NCBI RefSeq assembly: GCF_001875655.1
Contig: NZ_MKEQ01000001.1
Coordinates: 1,116,001 to 1,180,000 of the forward strand
Direction: 5' to 3'
From: Enterobacter hormaechei ATCC 49162
GTDB lineage: Bacteria > Pseudomonadota > Gammaproteobacteria > Enterobacterales > Enterobacteriaceae
DNA length: 64,000 nucleotides
Positions within the stretch are counted from its first letter, which is position 1, and the number at the start of each line of letters is the position of its first letter. The notes beneath the pieces are model-generated. The model saw only the letters and a list, made by a program, of their open reading frames with translations, was not told the DNA's origin and did not search any database. A program made the position numbers and the translations under genes. Positions 5,848 to 49,924 of the stretch are shown one piece after another.

Positions 5848-6303
5848 TCAGTACTGATGCGCGGTCGCGTTGTTGCCAAAGCCAACCTGATGCACAGTCA
5901 CCGTTGAACCGGACGCCGTCTGGTCTACCGCCGCACCGTTGCCGCCGCCGAACTGTTTCACATTGATAACAGAGTCTTTGCTATTCCACTGGTCGATGGT
6001 GGCGCTGTTACCAAAGCCTTTTTGCAGCAGATCGATAGAGCTGTCATCAGATCCCTGTCCAACATCCGCGCCGTTACCGCCACCATGCTGGGTAATGGTC
6101 AATTCAGAATCTCTGGCGTCCGTCTGCAAAGCAAGCGCGGAGTTACCGCCGCCGTACTGGTAAATGCTCAGGGTTGAATCAGGGCCGTTATTACCGCCAC
6201 CCCAACCACCACCGTGGCCGCCGCCAAATTGTGGTACCGCACCTGCGAAAGCACTGCCAGAAACGACGATTGCTGCAATAACTGCCACTTTGATAAGTTT
6301 CAT
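5848..6303 (-). CDS. csgA: Major curlin subunit CsgA
   Basis: Secreted protein that forms the functional amyloid of curli fibres. The 151-residue chain shows a 20-residue signal peptide ending SAFA and a glycine-rich N-terminal targeting segment of about 22 residues. Five imperfect repeats follow, starting near residues 43, 66, 88, 111 and 133. Each has the serine-X5-glutamine pattern and an internal asparagine, for example STLSIYQYGGGNSALALQ and STVTVHQVGFGNNATAHQ. Repeats 1 and 5 keep the Gln and Asn residues known in E. coli to drive nucleation. The N-terminal segment carries more Gly plus a Trp (GGGHGGGWGGG) than I recall for E. coli. It lies 39 bases after csgB in the same operon. Confidence 0.97.
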   Translation of the reverse strand: MKLIKVAVIAAIVVSGSAFAGAVPQFGGGHGGGWGGGNNGPDSTLSIYQYGGGNSALALQTDARDSELTITQHGGGNGADVGQGSDDSSIDLLQKGFGNSATIDQWNSKDSVINVKQFGGGNGAAVDQTASGSTVTVHQVGFGNNATAHQY

Positions 6304-13077: not shown

Positions 13078-13165
13078 GGTGAGGTGTCCGAGTGGCTGAA
13101 GGAGCACGCCTGGAAAGTGTGTATACGGCAACGTATCGGGGGTTCGAATCCCCCCCTCACCGCCA
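13078..13165 (+). tRNA. serX: tRNA-Ser (anticodon GGA), first copy
   Basis: 88-base class II tRNA. Acceptor arms GGTGAGG and CCTCACC pair perfectly, and the discriminator G is followed by an encoded CCA. The anticodon loop CTGGAAA reads UCC/UCU serine codons, a long variable arm (TGTATACGGCAACGTATC) is present, and the T loop is GGTTCGAATCC. Position next to ghrA matches E. coli serX. Confidence 0.97.
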
Positions 13166-16024: not shown

Positions 16025-16112
16025 GGTGAGGTGTCCGAGTGGCTGAAGGAGCACGCCTGGAAAGTGTGTATACGGCAACGTATCGGGGGTTCGAATCCCC
16101 CCCTCACCGCCA
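16025..16112 (+). tRNA. tRNA-Ser (anticodon GGA), second copy
   Basis: 88 bases, identical to the copy at 13078-13165 in every base I compared, including the encoded CCA. Promoter and terminator are intact, so both copies should be expressed. Confidence 0.97.
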
Positions 16113-43017: not shown

Positions 43018-43200
43018 TTACAACGATCTCGTTATGGCGAGGCTCCTGTACAAATACACGTTATCGCTCTGGTGGGTTCGAGAGAACCGGCACAGGGTAA
43101 AACAGGCACTGTCGAATCAAGGCTTTGTCAGTATAACTTCCCTTTCGGGATACGGTGTACAGTGCTGAACCCAGGACGTGGGGATCTCCTTTCCGACATG
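43018..43200 (+). ncRNA. M-box (Mg2+-sensing) riboswitch in the mgtE leader
   Basis: The leader has the M-box core GGCGAGGCTCCTGTACAAAT near 43037-43056 and its distal partner GTGTACAGTGCTGAACCCAG near 43157-43176. These match, with small changes, the conserved halves of the ykoK/mgtE leader of Bacillus subtilis (GGTGAGGCTCCTGTATG, CATACAGTGCTAAAGC). The bases between can fold into two further hairpins. The switch lies directly before an MgtE-family gene. The expression platform (43200-43250) is uncertain: ATCTC and GAGAGATTTTATTATT could form a terminator. Confidence 0.78.
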
Positions 43201-44294: not shown

Positions 44295-44382
44295 TGGCGG
44301 AAGCGTAGAGATTCGAACTCTAGAACCCTTTCGGGTCGCCGGTTTTCAAGACCGGTGCCTTCAACCGCTCGGCCACGCTTCC
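44295..44382 (-). tRNA. serT: tRNA-Ser (anticodon TGA), first copy
   Basis: 88-base class II tRNA on the minus strand. Acceptor arms GGAAGCG and CGCTTCC pair, G discriminator and encoded CCA follow. The anticodon loop CTTGAAA reads UCA/UCG codons, and a long variable arm (GACCCGAAAGGGTTC) is present. It corresponds to E. coli serT, which neighbours yccA. Confidence 0.97.
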
Positions 44383-44613: not shown

Positions 44614-44658
44614 ATGACTTTATTTAACGACGATTATGAATTTTATATTTATCAGTGA
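44614..44658 (+). CDS. Possible 14-residue leader peptide overlapping the LuxR-type gene
   Basis: ATG ACT TTA TTT AAC GAC, continuing to TGA at 44656-44658, encodes MTLFNDDYEFYIYQ. It overlaps the first 23 bases of the regulator gene in another frame and has GAG nine bases upstream, a better ribosome-site candidate than the one before the regulator. Translation coupling is possible. This may also be chance. Confidence 0.3.
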   Translation: MTLFNDDYEFYIYQ

Positions 44659-45163
44659 TAACTATTACCTTTGCCATGGTGTTTCAAGCGCCCTGACATC
44701 CACCTGTTTGATTCGCGATGACGCGGATATTCACGATCTCAACAGGCTCGATCCAGCAATGGATTTTATCATTGCGATTGAACAGGATAAGTTACGCAAT
44801 AAAACCATTCAGCAGGTCAAAAAAGTCAAACGTGATTACATCGTCCTGATGCATGAGATAGAAGCCAACAGCGCGGTGAGAATCGATAATATTATCTATT
44901 CGTCGATGCATTTTACTGCTCACCCTTTTCAACAATTAATGCGTTTTTATCGGGCGCTGAGAACACACTCCTTTACGCGACGCGAATATGACGTGCTGAA
45001 GCTTTTTCATATGGAAAACCATGAGATCGCGAAAAAGTTAAAACTGTCACAAAAAACCACCAGCACCTACCGCGTGAGGATCCTCGAGAAATTAAATATG
45101 CGTTCTAAAAATATTCTGGCGATGACCCGGATAAAATCGGCGATTGTCGATCAGAAGCTGTGA
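44636..45163 (+). CDS. LuxR-type helix-turn-helix regulator (orphan)
   Basis: 175-residue regulator. The C-terminal LuxR HTH (about 112-165: FTRREYDVLKLFHMENHEIA and KKLKLSQKTTSTYRVRILEK) is clear. The N-terminal 105 residues resemble a receiver-like domain of the CsgD/FimZ kind but lack a convincing phosphoacceptor Asp in the standard context. Its DNA is AT-richer than its neighbours, and it sits alone between tRNA-Ser(TGA) and an MscS gene. No ribosome-binding site of quality stands before the ATG at 44636. Target genes are unknown; fimbrial or biofilm control is a guess from the family. Confidence 0.8.
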   Translation: MNFIFISDNYYLCHGVSSALTSTCLIRDDADIHDLNRLDPAMDFIIAIEQDKLRNKTIQQVKKVKRDYIVLMHEIEANSAVRIDNIIYSSMHFTAHPFQQLMRFYRALRTHSFTRREYDVLKLFHMENHEIAKKLKLSQKTTSTYRVRILEKLNMRSKNILAMTRIKSAIVDQKL

Positions 45164-45194: not shown

Positions 45195-46808
45195 TCAGTT
45201 TTCGCCCTGAGGGGGTTTAGCTGGCGCGGGATACCAGTTCTCTTTGGCAACCATCACGCTGCCCTCCGGCTGCATAACAAAATTCGGGGACATGATCTGC
45301 ACGTTAAATTCATTAAACACGTCCTGTATCTGGCTGTGCAGTTCATTGCGGGCAACCGCGAGGGACTGATCGGGCAGCAGACGAACCTGCAATTCGTAAG
45401 CGATATACCAGTCCATTAACCCTAACTGGCGCACCAGCGGCGGCTCGGTAAGGTCAATTCCTTTTGCCCGTTTCGCAGCCAGCTCCAGCATGGCATGCAC
45501 CTGACGCCATGGGGTGTCATAACCGATCGTGACGCTGACCGTCAGATTGAGGCTGCCATCGGGCTGTAGCGCGCTCAGGTTGGTGATCTTACCGCTCACC
45601 ACCACCGCATTGGGCACGGTAACGACATAATTTTCCCGGGTAATAATTTTGGTCGCCAGCATGCCTATTTCACTGACCTTACCTTCGTTATCCGCCACCC
45701 GAATGACATCGCCTTTACGCAGGGCGCGGGAGTAAATCAGGACCAGACCGCTCATGGCATGGTTCATTACCCCCGCCGAGCCCAGCGTTAACATCAGGCC
45801 GAAGAAGACGCTAATACCTTTAAACGCCAGCGAGTTTGCGCCGGGGAGAAACGGCCAGGCGGCAGAGAGAGCAAATAGCCAGACGGCAACGGAAATGAGC
45901 TTGCGGGTCGCCCCCACGGTTTCCGGATGGACGCCGGGGAGTTGCAGACGACCAGCCTCCACCTGATTGAGCACCACCTTGAGAAGCTTCAGAATAAAAG
46001 CGGTAAGGAGGAAAATGATCAGCACAATCGTCAGCCCCGGCAAGGCCGAGACAATTGCCAGGGCGATTTGCTGCACCACGCGAAGCGTCCAGTCCCCCAG
46101 CGACGTGCCCCACACCCGGGTCCATGGAAACAGGCTGAATGCCCAGCTCAGCCAGACGTAAAAGCCAATCAACCCCAGCAGGAACATCAGGATGCCGTAA
46201 AGCCGAATCTCAATTGCGCCTATGTACCGCCGCCAGCTTTGCGGTACACGGCTGCGATTCTCCACAATACGCCGACGGTAGACGCGCCGGAACCAGCGCC
46301 AGGATCGCCAGGCGCCATAGCAGAGCAGCATAAGCGCCAGCAGACCAGCGGCTGTTTTTACCGTCGACAGCGCCAGCCAGCCGGTATCGTATTGATCGCG
46401 CAGCGCCATTCTCTGCGCTTCCATGCGCGCCAGCACGCGCTGCGCGGCCTGATCGAGGGTAAGATCGTCCCCTTCATCCAAATCCCCTTCCGTCAGCAGC
46501 ATCACCGGCTTACCGTTCATCACTATCAGCCGTCCCTGCTGGTTATAGCGGGTGACGGGGACGACGCTGAGCGGCTCACGTACATCCGCCTCGGTAAAAT
46601 TGCGCAGGGTGTTGCGGATGCGTAAAACGCGCTCTTCGGGCGTAGTCAGGCCAAACTTCGCCTGTAGCATGACGATCGGCTGATGGAAGATATAGACGGT
46701 TCGGGCGCGCTCCTGCTCCGTAGGCGCCTGGCGAGGCTCTGCGGCATACGATGAGAAGGCGCTCAGGGCGGCAAAACAGAACGCAAACGCGAGCAGGATT
46801 TTTTTCAT
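45195..46808 (-). CDS. MscS-family mechanosensitive channel with periplasmic N-terminal domain
   Basis: 537 residues from the ATG at 46808. A signal peptide (about 1-22, ending SSYA) is followed by a periplasmic region of about 120 residues. At least four membrane segments come next, then the MscS pore helix and beta domain (about 330-500). Signatures are GSAGVMNHAMSGLVLIYSRA near the pore and GDVIRVADNEGKVSEIGMLA. It resembles the larger E. coli MscS paralogues (YnaI, YbiO). It releases osmolytes during hypo-osmotic shock in family members. It converges on the LuxR-type gene and diverges from the ABC importer genes. Confidence 0.88.
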   Translation of the reverse strand: MKKILLAFAFCFAALSAFSSYAAEPRQAPTEQERARTVYIFHQPIVMLQAKFGLTTPEERVLRIRNTLRNFTEADVREPLSVVPVTRYNQQGRLIVMNGKPVMLLTEGDLDEGDDLTLDQAAQRVLARMEAQRMALRDQYDTGWLALSTVKTAAGLLALMLLCYGAWRSWRWFRRVYRRRIVENRSRVPQSWRRYIGAIEIRLYGILMFLLGLIGFYVWLSWAFSLFPWTRVWGTSLGDWTLRVVQQIALAIVSALPGLTIVLIIFLLTAFILKLLKVVLNQVEAGRLQLPGVHPETVGATRKLISVAVWLFALSAAWPFLPGANSLAFKGISVFFGLMLTLGSAGVMNHAMSGLVLIYSRALRKGDVIRVADNEGKVSEIGMLATKIITRENYVVTVPNAVVVSGKITNLSALQPDGSLNLTVSVTIGYDTPWRQVHAMLELAAKRAKGIDLTEPPLVRQLGLMDWYIAYELQVRLLPDQSLAVARNELHSQIQDVFNEFNVQIMSPNFVMQPEGSVMVAKENWYPAPAKPPQGEN

Positions 46809-46945
46809 CCTCACTACCCCAGGTCAGAAATCTTGTTATTTTTCAGGCAACCCGCGAATGCCAGGTGGGTATGTTGAGAATAGTCCAGCCTTCCGTTTCT
46901 GCAAGATGCAACCGTGAGCGTGTTGCTCTCAAACACAATATATGT

Positions 46946-46968
46946 ATTATGTTATAACATAACATTTT
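46946..46968 (+). promoter_or_regulatory. Zur-type zinc operator before the ABC importer
   Basis: ATGTTATAACATAACAT (46949-46965) is a perfect 7-base inverted repeat with a 3-base centre. It differs in one central position from the core of the E. coli Zur box ATGTTATAATATAACAT. It ends 16 bases before the substrate-binding protein ATG, and overlaps likely -10 sequences, so Zur would block the promoter when zinc is plentiful. Confidence 0.75.
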
Positions 46969-46981
46969 CGGATTGCGTTCT

Positions 46982-47989
46982 ATGAGACTTAAAAAAGGGT
47001 TATTTCTGGCTTCACTTCTTTCCATGGCACCTGCCGCTTTCGCCGCAACCTCCTGGCCTCTCACGATAGAAAATTGCGGCGTAACGCAGACCTTTGCGCA
47101 GGCTCCTCAGCGCGTCGTGACCGTGGGTCAGCATGAAACTGAATTATTGCTCGCTCTGGGGCTGGAGAAAACGATCGCCGCGACGTCGGTCTGGTTCGGT
47201 GAACTTCCGGCTCCGCTGGCGGATGCCGGAAAAAACCTTCCCCGGCTCACAGAAAATTCGCCCTCTTTTGAAGCTGTGGTGGGACAGAAACCGGAGCTCG
47301 TTCTCGCGCAGTATCACTGGCACATTGGTCCGCAGGGAGAAGTGGGAACACGTGAGCAGTTTGCATCGCTGGGAATAAATACCTGGATCTCCCCTGCCGA
47401 CTGCACGGATAAAGCGGTGACGGAAACGTCAAACGCAGACGGAGCACGAAGCGCGCCGTTTTCACTGGCGGAAATTACGCGGGAAGTGACAGATCTGGCC
47501 ACGATTTTTGATGTTTCCGCCCGAGGTGAGCAGCTCAACCGCGCGCTGACGGAACGTATCGAAAAGGCCCGGGCGCGCGTCTCAGCGAAACCGCTTCGCG
47601 TCGTGTTCTGGTTCTCCAGCAGCCGTCTGAACGGCGACCCCTGGGTGGCGGGGAATTACGGCGCGCCTGGCTGGATCAGCCGCACGCTGGGGTTGAAGAA
47701 CATTATTGACTCTCACGACGAATGGCCAGCTGTAACGTGGGAACATATTGCCCGGTCGCAGCCGGACGTGATTGTTATCGCTGAGATGTCCCGCAGGCTC
47801 TACCCTGCCGATGACGTTGCGGTAAAAGAAGCATTCTTGCGCAGTGACCCGGTGACGAAGAACATGCCTGCGGTCAGGAACAACCACATCATCGTGGTGC
47901 CAGCGATGTCGTTAAACCCTTCATTGCGTAACGTTGATGCCGTTGAGCTTATCAGCGATCGACTGGCTTCTTTCCGGGATGAACAATGA
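46982..47989 (+). CDS. Periplasmic substrate-binding protein of a FecB/BtuF-type ABC importer
   Basis: 335 residues from the ATG at 46982 (an upstream TTG at 46973 is less likely). Signal peptide about 1-21 (ending AFAA). A class III periplasmic binding fold follows: APQRVVTVGQHETELLLALG near 40 and QKPELVLAQYHWHIGPQG near 94, with a WITRTLG-like helix later. Family members bind iron-siderophores, heme, vitamin B12 or metal chelates. Proximity of a Zur box suggests a zinc complex here. The permease gene starts four bases before its stop. Confidence 0.85.
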   Translation: MRLKKGLFLASLLSMAPAAFAATSWPLTIENCGVTQTFAQAPQRVVTVGQHETELLLALGLEKTIAATSVWFGELPAPLADAGKNLPRLTENSPSFEAVVGQKPELVLAQYHWHIGPQGEVGTREQFASLGINTWISPADCTDKAVTETSNADGARSAPFSLAEITREVTDLATIFDVSARGEQLNRALTERIEKARARVSAKPLRVVFWFSSSRLNGDPWVAGNYGAPGWISRTLGLKNIIDSHDEWPAVTWEHIARSQPDVIVIAEMSRRLYPADDVAVKEAFLRSDPVTKNMPAVRNNHIIVVPAMSLNPSLRNVDAVELISDRLASFRDEQ

Positions 47990-49017
47990 GTCCGTTGGCT
48001 TTTGAACGCCGCCAGCAAACTTTACTGGCGGCAGGCATCATGGCGCTGCCGCTGATGCTGGTCTTTGCCGCCAGTATCGGTGATATGCCGGTGTCGTATG
48101 CCAGTACCGGGAAAGCGATCCTCAACGGACTGGGGTTGACCGCTTATGCGTTGCCGCAAACAGAGGAAGGTATCATCTGGGAATATCGCATGAGCCGGGC
48201 AGTAATGGCGGCGTGCAGCGGCGGTGGCCTGGCGCTGTGCGGGCTGGTGTTACAGTCGATCCTGCGTAACCCTCTGGCTGAGCCGTATCTGCTGGGGATT
48301 TCCGCGGGCGCATCACTGGGCGCCGTCTGTGTAATGCTTCTCGGTATCGGGGGAAGCGTGATTGGCGTGAGCAGCGGTGCGTTTGTCGGCTCCTGCGCCG
48401 CCTTTGCGCTCATCATGCTGATTACAAACGGCATGAGCGCAAGCCCGTCACGCATTTTACTGGCTGGCATTGCGGGTACTCAACTCTTCAACGCCATGAC
48501 CGCGTACGTTGTCAGCACGTCCGCCAATGCCGAGCAGTCCCGTAGCGTCATGTTCTGGCTGCTGGGGAGCCTGAGCGGCGTGCGCTGGCCTGACGCGCTA
48601 CTGGCGCTGGCCGTTACGCTTGCAGGTTTACTGGTGATATTTCTCTTTTCGCGGGCGCTGGATACCTTCACCTTCGGGGATGAGGTCTCTGCCACGCTGG
48701 GGATCCCGGTTACCGCCGTGCGTATTGTCTTATTGCTGACCTGCGCCGTCGTCACCGCAACGATGGTGAGCGCCATAGGCGCAGTGGGGTTTGTGGGACT
48801 GGTGATCCCCCACGTGACGCGCATGCTATGCGGGCCGGGTCATCGTCGCGCGATCCCGCTGACGTTTCTCATCGGCGCCCACTTTATGATCCTCGCAGAT
48901 ATCGTCTCACGCACGCTGATTGTGCACCAGGTTCTGCCCATCGGAGTGGTGACTGCGCTGGTGGGCGCCCCCGTCTTTGTGGCGTTGCTTTATCAAAACC
49001 GAAAGGAGCATCCATGA
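47986..49017 (+). CDS. FecCD/BtuC-family ABC permease
   Basis: 343-residue polytopic membrane protein with about nine to ten hydrophobic segments. Family signatures are LVLQSILRNPLAEPYLLGIS near residue 88 and SAIGAVGFVGLVIPHVTRML near 267, the latter containing the coupling-helix glycine motif. Its ATG overlaps the stop of the binding-protein gene by four bases and its stop overlaps the ATPase ATG (ATGA), so the three genes are translationally coupled. Confidence 0.9.
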   Translation: MSPLAFERRQQTLLAAGIMALPLMLVFAASIGDMPVSYASTGKAILNGLGLTAYALPQTEEGIIWEYRMSRAVMAACSGGGLALCGLVLQSILRNPLAEPYLLGISAGASLGAVCVMLLGIGGSVIGVSSGAFVGSCAAFALIMLITNGMSASPSRILLAGIAGTQLFNAMTAYVVSTSANAEQSRSVMFWLLGSLSGVRWPDALLALAVTLAGLLVIFLFSRALDTFTFGDEVSATLGIPVTAVRIVLLLTCAVVTATMVSAIGAVGFVGLVIPHVTRMLCGPGHRRAIPLTFLIGAHFMILADIVSRTLIVHQVLPIGVVTALVGAPVFVALLYQNRKEHP

Positions 49018-49850
49018 ATATTACCGTGGCCGGGTTAACCGTAACCCGACAAGCGCAGACGGTGCTGAAGGATATTGATCTCGACCTGCCATCCGGGCAG
49101 ATTGTCGGCCTGTTAGGGCCAAACGGCTCGGGCAAGTCGACGCTATTGCGCTGTCTCGCCGGGCTGATCCCGCGACTTAGCGAACGTGTTGCGCTTAATG
49201 GCACAACGCTTGGCACGATGCCACTGAAAACACGCGCGCAGACCATGGCCTTTGTTCCGCAACATGCTGAAGTCGACGGAGAGCTGACCGTTGAGGAAAT
49301 CGTTAGACTGGGGCGTACGCCCTACCGGAAAACATTCCAGAGAACCACTCGCGAGGATGAGGCTGCGGTTGAACAGGCGATTGGCCTGATGCAGTTAACC
49401 GGATTGCGCCAGCGGCGATGGCAGTTTTTGTCTGGCGGAGAGCGTCAGCGAAGCCAGATAGCCCGCGCGCTGGCCCAGCAGCCGCAGGTGCTGTTGCTTG
49501 ATGAACCAACGAACCACCTGGACATTCAGCACCAGCTGGAGCTGATGCGGCTCGTTTCACAGCTGCCGCTTACGGTGGTGGTTGCACTGCACGATCTCAA
49601 CCTTGCGGCCAATTACTGCCAGCGGCTGATCCTCCTGAAAGCCGGAAAGATTTCAGCCACGGGCGCGCCCGAAGCGGTGCTGACGCCAGCAAACATCGAG
49701 GACACCTGGTGCGTAAAAGCGCAGGTCAGTAAGGCCGACGCCGGGATCACGATAAGCTACAACATGGGCGGCATGGCTGAAGTCTGGCGCAAAAGCAAAA
49801 ACCCCTGCGATATTGCTATCGCAGGGGTTTCGAATTTGGCGGAAGCGTAG
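49014..49850 (+). CDS. FecE/BtuD-type ABC ATPase with C-terminus read through into tRNA-Ser
   Basis: 278-residue ATPase: Walker A GPNGSGKST near residue 35, signature LSGGERQRSQIARAL near 140, Walker B VLLLDEPTNHLD near 163, and switch histidine in VVALHDLNLA. GAAAGGAG precedes the ATG. Typical members end near residue 255-260. Here about twenty residues (KSKNPCDIAIAGVSNLAEA) are encoded by the tRNA terminator hairpin and the tRNA 3' end, with the stop TAG inside the tRNA. The native end was probably lost when the tRNA copy joined this gene. The catalytic part is intact. Confidence 0.87.
   Translation: MNITVAGLTVTRQAQTVLKDIDLDLPSGQIVGLLGPNGSGKSTLLRCLAGLIPRLSERVALNGTTLGTMPLKTRAQTMAFVPQHAEVDGELTVEEIVRLGRTPYRKTFQRTTREDEAAVEQAIGLMQLTGLRQRRWQFLSGGERQRSQIARALAQQPQVLLLDEPTNHLDIQHQLELMRLVSQLPLTVVVALHDLNLAANYCQRLILLKAGKISATGAPEAVLTPANIEDTWCVKAQVSKADAGITISYNMGGMAEVWRKSKNPCDIAIAGVSNLAEA
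49796..49831. terminator. Terminator of second tRNA-Ser(TGA), inside the ATPase reading frame
   Basis: AACCCCTGCGATA and TATCGCAGGGGTT around TTGC. It is the same hairpin as at 44255-44287 with one compensatory pair changed. It lies within the last codons of the ABC ATPase, so it may also stop that transcript before the end of its frame. Confidence 0.82.
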
Positions 49851-49924
49851 AGATTCGAACTCTAGAACCCTTTCGGGTCGCCGGTTTTCAAGACCGGTGC
49901 CTTCAACCGCTCGGCCACGCTTCC
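49837..49924 (-). tRNA. tRNA-Ser (anticodon TGA), second copy
   Basis: 88 bases, identical to the copy at 44295-44382 in every base I compared. Its 3' 14 bases overlap the end of the ABC ATPase frame on the other strand. Promoter intact. Confidence 0.97.

Follow-up and report, generated by a model that had tools for sequence, protein, structure and literature searches.

The window analysed here, i.e. the complete stretch of 64,000 nucleotides from contig NZ_MKEQ01000001.1 of Enterobacter hormaechei ATCC 49162, contains an operon of three coupled genes for a periplasmic binding protein, a permease and an ATPase (Table 1), which most probably form an ABC importer of the BtuCD/FecBCD class under repression by Zur. 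A cobalt-bearing complex is considered the most likely cargo, in a family that would have moved from a B12 switch to Zur; the probability of this reading is estimated at roughly 0.48, i.e. slightly below one half. In the original prediction, the operon was regarded as a putatively Zur-controlled importer and a candidate system for zinc-chelate uptake. The transporter class and the Zur box near the putative promoter were confirmed, whereas the zinc-chelate cargo is not supported as stated, since cobalamin riboswitches on the sister clade and members with tandem control point to a history in cobalt or B12 metabolism.

The class assignment is based on Pfam matches to Peripla_BP_2, FecCD and ABC_tran within one operon, the genes of which overlap by 4 bp (ATGA type) at both junctions. 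The closest named relatives of the binding protein, which carries an apparent signal peptide (read by eye), are those of E. cloacae M-7 (96%) and E. hormaechei (93%). More specific assignments failed. For EitABC, the scores were 257 bits against a cut-off of 640 (EitA) and 251 against 485 (EitC), and for BtuFCD they were 35 against 234 (BtuF), 209 against 334 (BtuC) and 133 against 281 (BtuD); the F420-0 models remained under the cut-off for both the binding protein and the permease. The structure predicted by AlphaFold for the binding protein (pLDDT 88.6, built from an alignment of 21 rows) resembles class III binding proteins. Its top fold match is 4mlz, the title of which names no ligand, and heme, siderophore and B12 binders follow lower in the list, with V. 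cholerae BtuF at rank 34. The fold matches of the predicted structure thus leave the cargo undecided.

The predicted control by Zur can be traced to a 19-mer directly ahead of the binding-protein gene, which overlaps the TATTAT of a probable -10 element. The promoter was read by eye and is absent from the output of the promoter pattern scan; its TTG and TATTAT were found again in most ortholog leaders. A weaker second dyad lies at 46943-46961, offset by 5 bp from the box. The 13-mer core alone is non-specific, since at up to two mismatches it matched the genome 305 times forward and 295 times reverse, compared to 356 and 363 for the reversed control. At up to three mismatches, the 19-mer occurred at only seven places in 4.9 Mb, compared to 0 and 1 for the reversed control. 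These places comprise znuA/znuCB, zinT, the operon described here, a zni-like operon, ykgM and two unexplained loci (L012 and L014), of which the first carries its Zur-like box (L012:1501-1519, two mismatches) ahead of a family-1 glycosidase (GH1) gene. In a leave-one-out weight matrix, which is rough due to four training sites per left-out score, the site of the operon reached 30.8 bits, compared to 23.2 for znu, 27.2 for the zni-like site, 27.8 for zinT and 27.9 for ykgM. This is the opposite of the score well below znu that the original prediction had named as an argument against itself. None of 5000 first-order resamples of the leader reached 30.8, and Zur itself is encoded in the genome (351 bits, cut-off 167). 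The names zinT, ZnuA, L31 type B, ZigA, DksA, RstA and RstB are backed by model matches over the cut-off, whereas zni, ykgM, btuB, fhlA, hyp and cob are names which we take to fit from reading the sequences; the zni-like genes match the AztA and AztB models under the cut-off.

The box is also conserved along with the operon. Orthologs of at least 66% identity were found in 14 of 60 genomes (the one studied here included throughout), namely in 14 of 36 within the genus and in 0 of 24 outside. All 14 are preceded by a Zur box; 11 of them contain the 22-mer leader core TGTATTATGTTATAACATAACA unaltered, whereas it shows one change in two and five changes in one. By comparison, no Zur box within four mismatches was found at any of 16 EitA-like paralog loci. 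Among 20 Enterobacterales loci, a set overlapping the 14 genus orthologs, every one carries a Zur box at most 150 bp upstream. Based on this conservation, the 19-mer scan and the weight matrix, a chance match was rejected. The Zur-boxed operon occurs at several chromosomal sites and on plasmids; for the five annotated plasmid loci, three showed a Zur box (L101, L104, L105), and L102 and L103 a riboswitch instead. In the Pantoea eucrina element (L099/L101), a gene for the zinc chaperone ZigA diverges from the operon with Zur boxes between them, and the Pseudomonadaceae loci L147 and L148 show the order Zur box, DksA-family gene, ZigA, binding protein, permease (models checked on L147). These neighbours reinforce the predicted Zur link in two branches. 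Altogether, Zur control of the operon is well supported at the sequence level, and the operon is very probably turned on at zinc shortage.

Matches at E 1e-30 in a class-wide sample of 369 genomes were restricted to the genome studied here, G329 and G422. In E. coli genomes, no place covering 80% of the operon was found, and the ten matches listed correspond to tRNA-Ser; a distant search in E. coli returned 225 records, mostly plasmids, with the ten matches listed at 68% over 18%. The plasmid of L101, recorded under the host name 'Acinetobacter venetianus', and Pantoea eucrina L099 share 99% identity along 14.5 kb. Because of this identity, which results either from a very recent transfer or from a mislabelled record, both were counted as one element and the host label of L101 is doubted. 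In Pantoea/Erwinia-type copies, a small annotated DUF1289 gene follows the operon (L101:12890-13066, L104:10932-11120, L105:10914-11099), and an open reading frame similar to it by eye lies at L081:10924-11109.

A second type of control was found for the relatives of the operon. A cobalamin riboswitch precedes the binding-protein gene in all eight Pseudomonas loci L090-L097, in R. capsulatus (L102), in P. aminophilus (L103) and in L107, and it heads the gene in 16 of 20 further Pseudomonadaceae regions, the others being L147, L148, L163 and L166. For the operon in the window, such a riboswitch was ruled out, as none reached the gathering score between 40000 and 56000; the same holds true for all eight Enterobacterales loci and all six genus loci searched. 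In the P. oryzihabitans group, both elements were observed in tandem: an AT-rich Zur-like string, GTTATAAAGTAAC, lies upstream of the cobalamin aptamer and is followed by the riboswitch. This order was seen in seven of the eight loci L090-L097 and in nine of ten in a second, overlapping set. The string touches the aptamer or lies at most 10 bp from it in five of the eight loci, while it is located about 50 bp from a partial riboswitch match in L096 and about 0.3 kb away in L094, and is absent in L097. The P. oryzihabitans-like loci L122 and L123 contain extra sequence between box and riboswitch, the box of L122 being outside the aligned stretch. In the genome of L090 (5.2 Mb), the 13-mer at up to one mismatch gave seven forward matches, compared to 2 and 1 for the controls, and one of the seven precedes a DksA-family gene.

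The riboswitch-headed operons of Pseudomonadaceae, Rhodobacter and Paracoccus show the same order of binding protein, permease and, in part, ATPase where it was read, binding proteins 43-50% identical to that of the operon, and no Zur box seen before the binding-protein gene. An annotated pseudoazurin gene directly follows two of them (L102:12789-13214 and L103:12820-13236), a link to a copper protein that is unexplained. In a tree of 32 binding proteins, nine of the ten riboswitch-only rows (L168 treated as one of the nine) formed one clade with a support of 100/99, and the Zur and tandem rows together with L088, L089 and L097 formed the other one, comprising 21 rows (98/96). L099 and L084, the binding-protein frames of which are possibly broken, were excluded from the tree and the structure alignment and included in the box counts. 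In this phylogeny, which the original prediction had named as a check, the sister clade of the Zur-box rows stands under cobalamin riboswitches. The riboswitches in the sister clade and in the tandem members therefore point to cobalt or B12 metabolism in the history of the family.

As a marker of B12 synthesis, CbiC/CobH was looked for in 57 genomes, a set outside which lie the hosts of L097, L102 and L103. It was found in all 27 tested genomes with a riboswitch on the operon, i.e. in ten of the P. oryzihabitans group (a Zur-like box being seen in nine of them), 16 with the riboswitch only, and G422. Among the 22 Enterobacterales carriers tested, it was missing from 21, one of which (G032) is an assembly of 79% completeness; the exception is Phytobacter (L085), and the genome studied here contains no CbiC. 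Of the remaining eight genomes, those of L147, L148, L098, L088, L089, L163 and L167 contain CbiC/CobH and that of L166 lacks it. This split fits an importer that once served B12 synthesis and would have been retained for another purpose where the synthesis is absent, although descent alone could yield the same split.

Based on these observations, the following mode of action is proposed. At ample zinc, Zur would occupy the box over the -10 element and keep the operon off. At zinc shortage, Zur would be released and the binding protein would hand a metal complex to the permease and the ATPase. The cargo would be a cobalt chelate, perhaps a metallophore carrying both cobalt and zinc, and the imported cobalt could relieve zinc starvation by filling zinc sites. 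In evolutionary terms, an importer linked to B12 or cobalt under cobalamin riboswitches would later have come under Zur; tandem-controlled members would persist in the P. oryzihabitans group, and the Enterobacterales carriers, most of them seemingly without B12 synthesis, would retain the Zur box only. The stricter version of this history, in which a riboswitch-controlled cobalt importer passed to Zur via a tandem stage as in the P. oryzihabitans group and is now a mobile importer for cobalt-for-zinc rescue in bacteria unable to make B12, is put forward tentatively and with less confidence than the proposal as a whole. If the proposal is true, the zinc starvation response of Enterobacterales includes the uptake of a complex of another metal, and cobalt import gains a purpose outside B12 in organisms that do not make it. 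The tandem of Zur box and riboswitch would then be a naturally occurring switch with two inputs, the zinc and the B12 status of the cell, and the exchange of one regulator for another could be read from the clade.

A precedent for such a function is PA2911-PA2914 of P. aeruginosa, which was already mentioned as a parallel in the original prediction and which shows that Zur-controlled importers of this class are known. It carries a Zur site and is induced under zinc depletion (PMC4542158), a cobalt or cobalamin cargo was suggested for it already in 2015 (PMC4542158), and it is reported to import pyochelin-cobalt, with cobalt relieving zinc starvation (PMC11481552; PMC13083405). Both systems are BtuCD-class importers under Zur, for the operon described here at the level of sequence. 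The parallel holds true in kind. While the first gene of PA2911-2914 encodes a TonB receptor, the operon comprises none. Clusters of that layout were represented by 12 Pseudomonadaceae regions, picked by binding-protein matches of 29-35% to the P. oryzihabitans protein and not part of the 32-row tree; P. aeruginosa itself is not among them. A receptor was found in 11 of the 12 (directly upstream in ten) and a Zur box at up to three mismatches in four, and the binding proteins are 27.6-30.1% identical to that of the operon (nine of 12 scored). A primer sequence for PA2911 (PMC13083405) gave no match at up to one mismatch in 398 Pseudomonadaceae genomes. Identity with PA2911-2914 was rejected, and this system looks like an analogue, because the clusters of its layout are distant and bear a receptor. 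It therefore appears that transporters of this class came under Zur on two or more occasions. A literature search over titles and beginnings of abstracts, with few subscription papers, yielded nothing on this operon and nothing on a Zur box combined with a cobalamin riboswitch on one operon; the riboswitches on the sister-clade genes and the tandem arrangement in the P. oryzihabitans relatives are new.

Several observations weigh against the proposed cobalt cargo and its history. The Zur-like box GTTATAAAGTAAC has 2 to 4 mismatches to the 19-mer and deviates from the consensus at 2 to 4 of 17 positions, and the riboswitches of the P. oryzihabitans group are weak (33-53 bits compared to 95-112 in the sister clade), all passing the gathering score. 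Single members do not follow the pattern: the riboswitch is missing from L163 and L166, both box and riboswitch are missing from L088 and L167 (the Rfam search for L167 covering 1.5 kb upstream), the box of L089 has four mismatches, and L097, which falls into the Zur clade, carries a riboswitch but lacks the box. L167 is placed outside both clades of the tree, the root of which is a midpoint on the very long EitA branch. Furthermore, L168 shows a Zur-like match with two mismatches (5857-5875) about 0.3 kb upstream of its riboswitch-bearing binding-protein gene, beside genes which we take to be cob; this locus, which is not of the Pseudomonadaceae type, may be a further instance of tandem control, in this case from the riboswitch clade; the matches in L152, L153 and L164 (2, 3 and 4 mismatches) lie about 1.5 kb upstream, by another gene. 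The CbiC split is that of one marker gene, tracks taxonomy and may be nothing more, and Zur-only members also occur in CbiC-bearing genomes (L147, L148, L098, L085). Tandem control would require low zinc and low B12 at the same time, a condition not obviously expected if the importer served cobalt-for-zinc replacement alone. Finally, the cargo may have changed, because the binding proteins of the Zur and the riboswitch clades are not alike in all residues.

The last point leads to the strongest alternative, a zinc-chelate (zincophore) importer in a family whose cargo would have changed from a complex of cobalt to one of zinc upon the takeover by Zur. It would be in line with the Zur box and the ZigA and DksA-family neighbours, as well as with the binding protein, in which, for example, two residues at 146-147 are missing in the riboswitch clade and in the EitA of the same genome. 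The use of a zincophore by an enterobacterium has been described for yersiniabactin in E. coli Nissle (PMC8636617), which indicates a demand for such uptake. On the other hand, members of the Zur clade with a cobalamin riboswitch would be odd for a cargo of zinc only, no metallophore genes were noticed by eye in the open reading frame lists around the orthologs (no search was aimed at them), and cobalt is what the best-studied analogue reportedly transports (PMC11481552). This alternative is therefore regarded as rather unlikely, and a cobalt or mixed cobalt/zinc complex is favoured because it accounts for both the B12 history and the control by Zur, with PA2911-2914 as precedent. In sum, the data suggest that a cobalt-type metal complex is accepted by this importer no less readily than one of zinc.

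As stated in the original prediction, no TonB receptor is nearby: none of the 11 receptors of the genome (PF00593) lies within the window, and a receptor profile, which found the receptor in 11 of 12 regions serving as positive control, gave no match in the window and none in the 44 loci of relatives (L057-L100). The look for Zur boxes before TonB receptors, suggested there as a check, gave none at up to three mismatches at the 11 receptor loci, by which a Zur-controlled receptor elsewhere in the genome appears unlikely. Matches with four mismatches occurred at L019 and L023, the one in L019 lying by the start codon beside a stretch that appears Fur-like by eye. Two of the five plasmid loci, L102 and L104, contain a receptor within about 6 kb, each adjoining another siderophore-type ABC set; in the vicinity of L102, there are also a DMT-family transporter and a gene annotated with a condensation domain.

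An importer of corrinoids (B12 or cobinamide) under Zur, with BtuB as receptor, would explain the BtuC-type permease, the riboswitch-headed relatives and the tetrapyrrole-methylase genes that adjoin the Zur-clade members L090 and L089. The genome also encodes a receptor which we take to be btuB-like (L024), with a cobalamin riboswitch of its own (93 bits). However, the same locus argues against this cargo, which is less likely because L024 keeps its riboswitch and the operon has none; a host without corrin synthesis, as indicated by the missing CbiC, should keep a riboswitch on its salvage genes. Moreover, the best fold matches are not BtuF. A corrinoid cargo is accordingly considered improbable. 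An ordinary iron-siderophore importer with a Zur box by chance or of minor relevance is the least probable explanation, and a very unlikely one. Its sole indication, namely that EitA, the family model that fits the binding protein best, belongs to a siderophore system, comes with a score far under the cut-off and is opposed by the box in all 20 Enterobacterales loci and by the best match of the leader to the Fur-box consensus, which has 8 mismatches of 19 and by which control by Fur was rejected as well.

The EitABC system of the same genome (G000:C2:740565) belongs to the same class, its EitA being 37% identical to the binding protein of the operon; in contrast to the latter, it exceeds the cut-off of the EitA model (700 bits against 640), and no Zur box within four mismatches was found in its region. 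This region (L169, G000:C2:734000-748000) adjoins a sigma-54 activator and genes read as hyp (nickel insertion for hydrogenase), and because of these neighbours the EitABC cargo might be a nickel instead of an iron complex. BtuFCD shares the transporter class, the operon proteins scoring under its cut-offs. ZnuABC and ZniCBA carry Zur boxes like the operon and belong to a different ABC class with cluster A-I binding proteins; they take part in the zinc starvation response (PMC10797113).

Table 1. Features of the operon and of the tRNA-framed segment in the window.
Feature	Position	Strand	Remarks
Zur box core 13-mer, GTTATAACATAAC	46951-46963	+	pattern scan
Zur box 19-mer, TATGTTATAACATAACATT	46948-46966	+	pattern scan and weight matrix; 15 bp upstream of binding-protein start codon
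Probable sigma-70 promoter	46923-46950	+	TTGCTC 46923-46928, 16-bp spacer, TATTAT (-10) 46945-46950; read by eye
Binding protein, FecB/BtuF class, periplasmic, 335 aa	46982-47989	+	Peripla_BP_2, 116 bits
Permease, FecCD family, 343 aa	47986-49017	+	FecCD, 274 bits
ATPase, 278 aa	49014-49850	+	ABC_tran, 118 bits
tRNA-Ser(TGA), first copy	44295-44382	-	left border of variable segment
LuxR-type regulator	44636-45163	+	in tRNA-framed segment; adjoins 3 of 13 other orthologs
MscS-type channel	45195-46814	-	in tRNA-framed segment; adjoins 1 of 13 other orthologs
tRNA-Ser(TGA), second copy	49837-49924	-	right border; identical to first copy

The operon is situated between two identical copies of tRNA-Ser(TGA), each with its own terminator. 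The frame of the ATPase stops inside the second copy, so that its last approximately 25 codons correspond to the terminator and the 3' end of the tRNA (49770-49850); the ATPase comprises 251-264 aa in six orthologs without a flanking tRNA pair and 252-257 aa in some tRNA-adjacent ones. No integrase was found among the open reading frames of the tRNA-framed segment in the window. Regarding the 13 other orthologs, the tRNA pair frames the operon in seven, one (L067) has a single tRNA copy nearby, three (L064, L065, L066) are located between rstA and rstB, and two elsewhere. The models for rstA and rstB, which are usually neighbours, were checked on L064, and L065 and L066 were assigned by likeness. 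At each insertion site, the Zur box accompanies the operon cassette. In 20 genomes of the genus that lack the operon at this position (L172-L191; no binding-protein match, anchored by the tRNA beside an OppA-like gene), a second tRNA copy lies at most 6.7 kb away in 13 and is absent in seven; the distance between the copies ranges from 0.1 to 6 kb and the content of the segment varies. We read the tRNA-Ser(TGA) pair as a variable hot spot for small cargo.

Beside the first tRNA-Ser(TGA) copy, an M-box magnesium riboswitch (112 bits, 43021-43190) precedes the adjoining MgtE-family gene. A second tRNA-Ser pair (GGA) is located in the window at 13078-13165 and 16025-16112, its copies being 2.9 kb apart.

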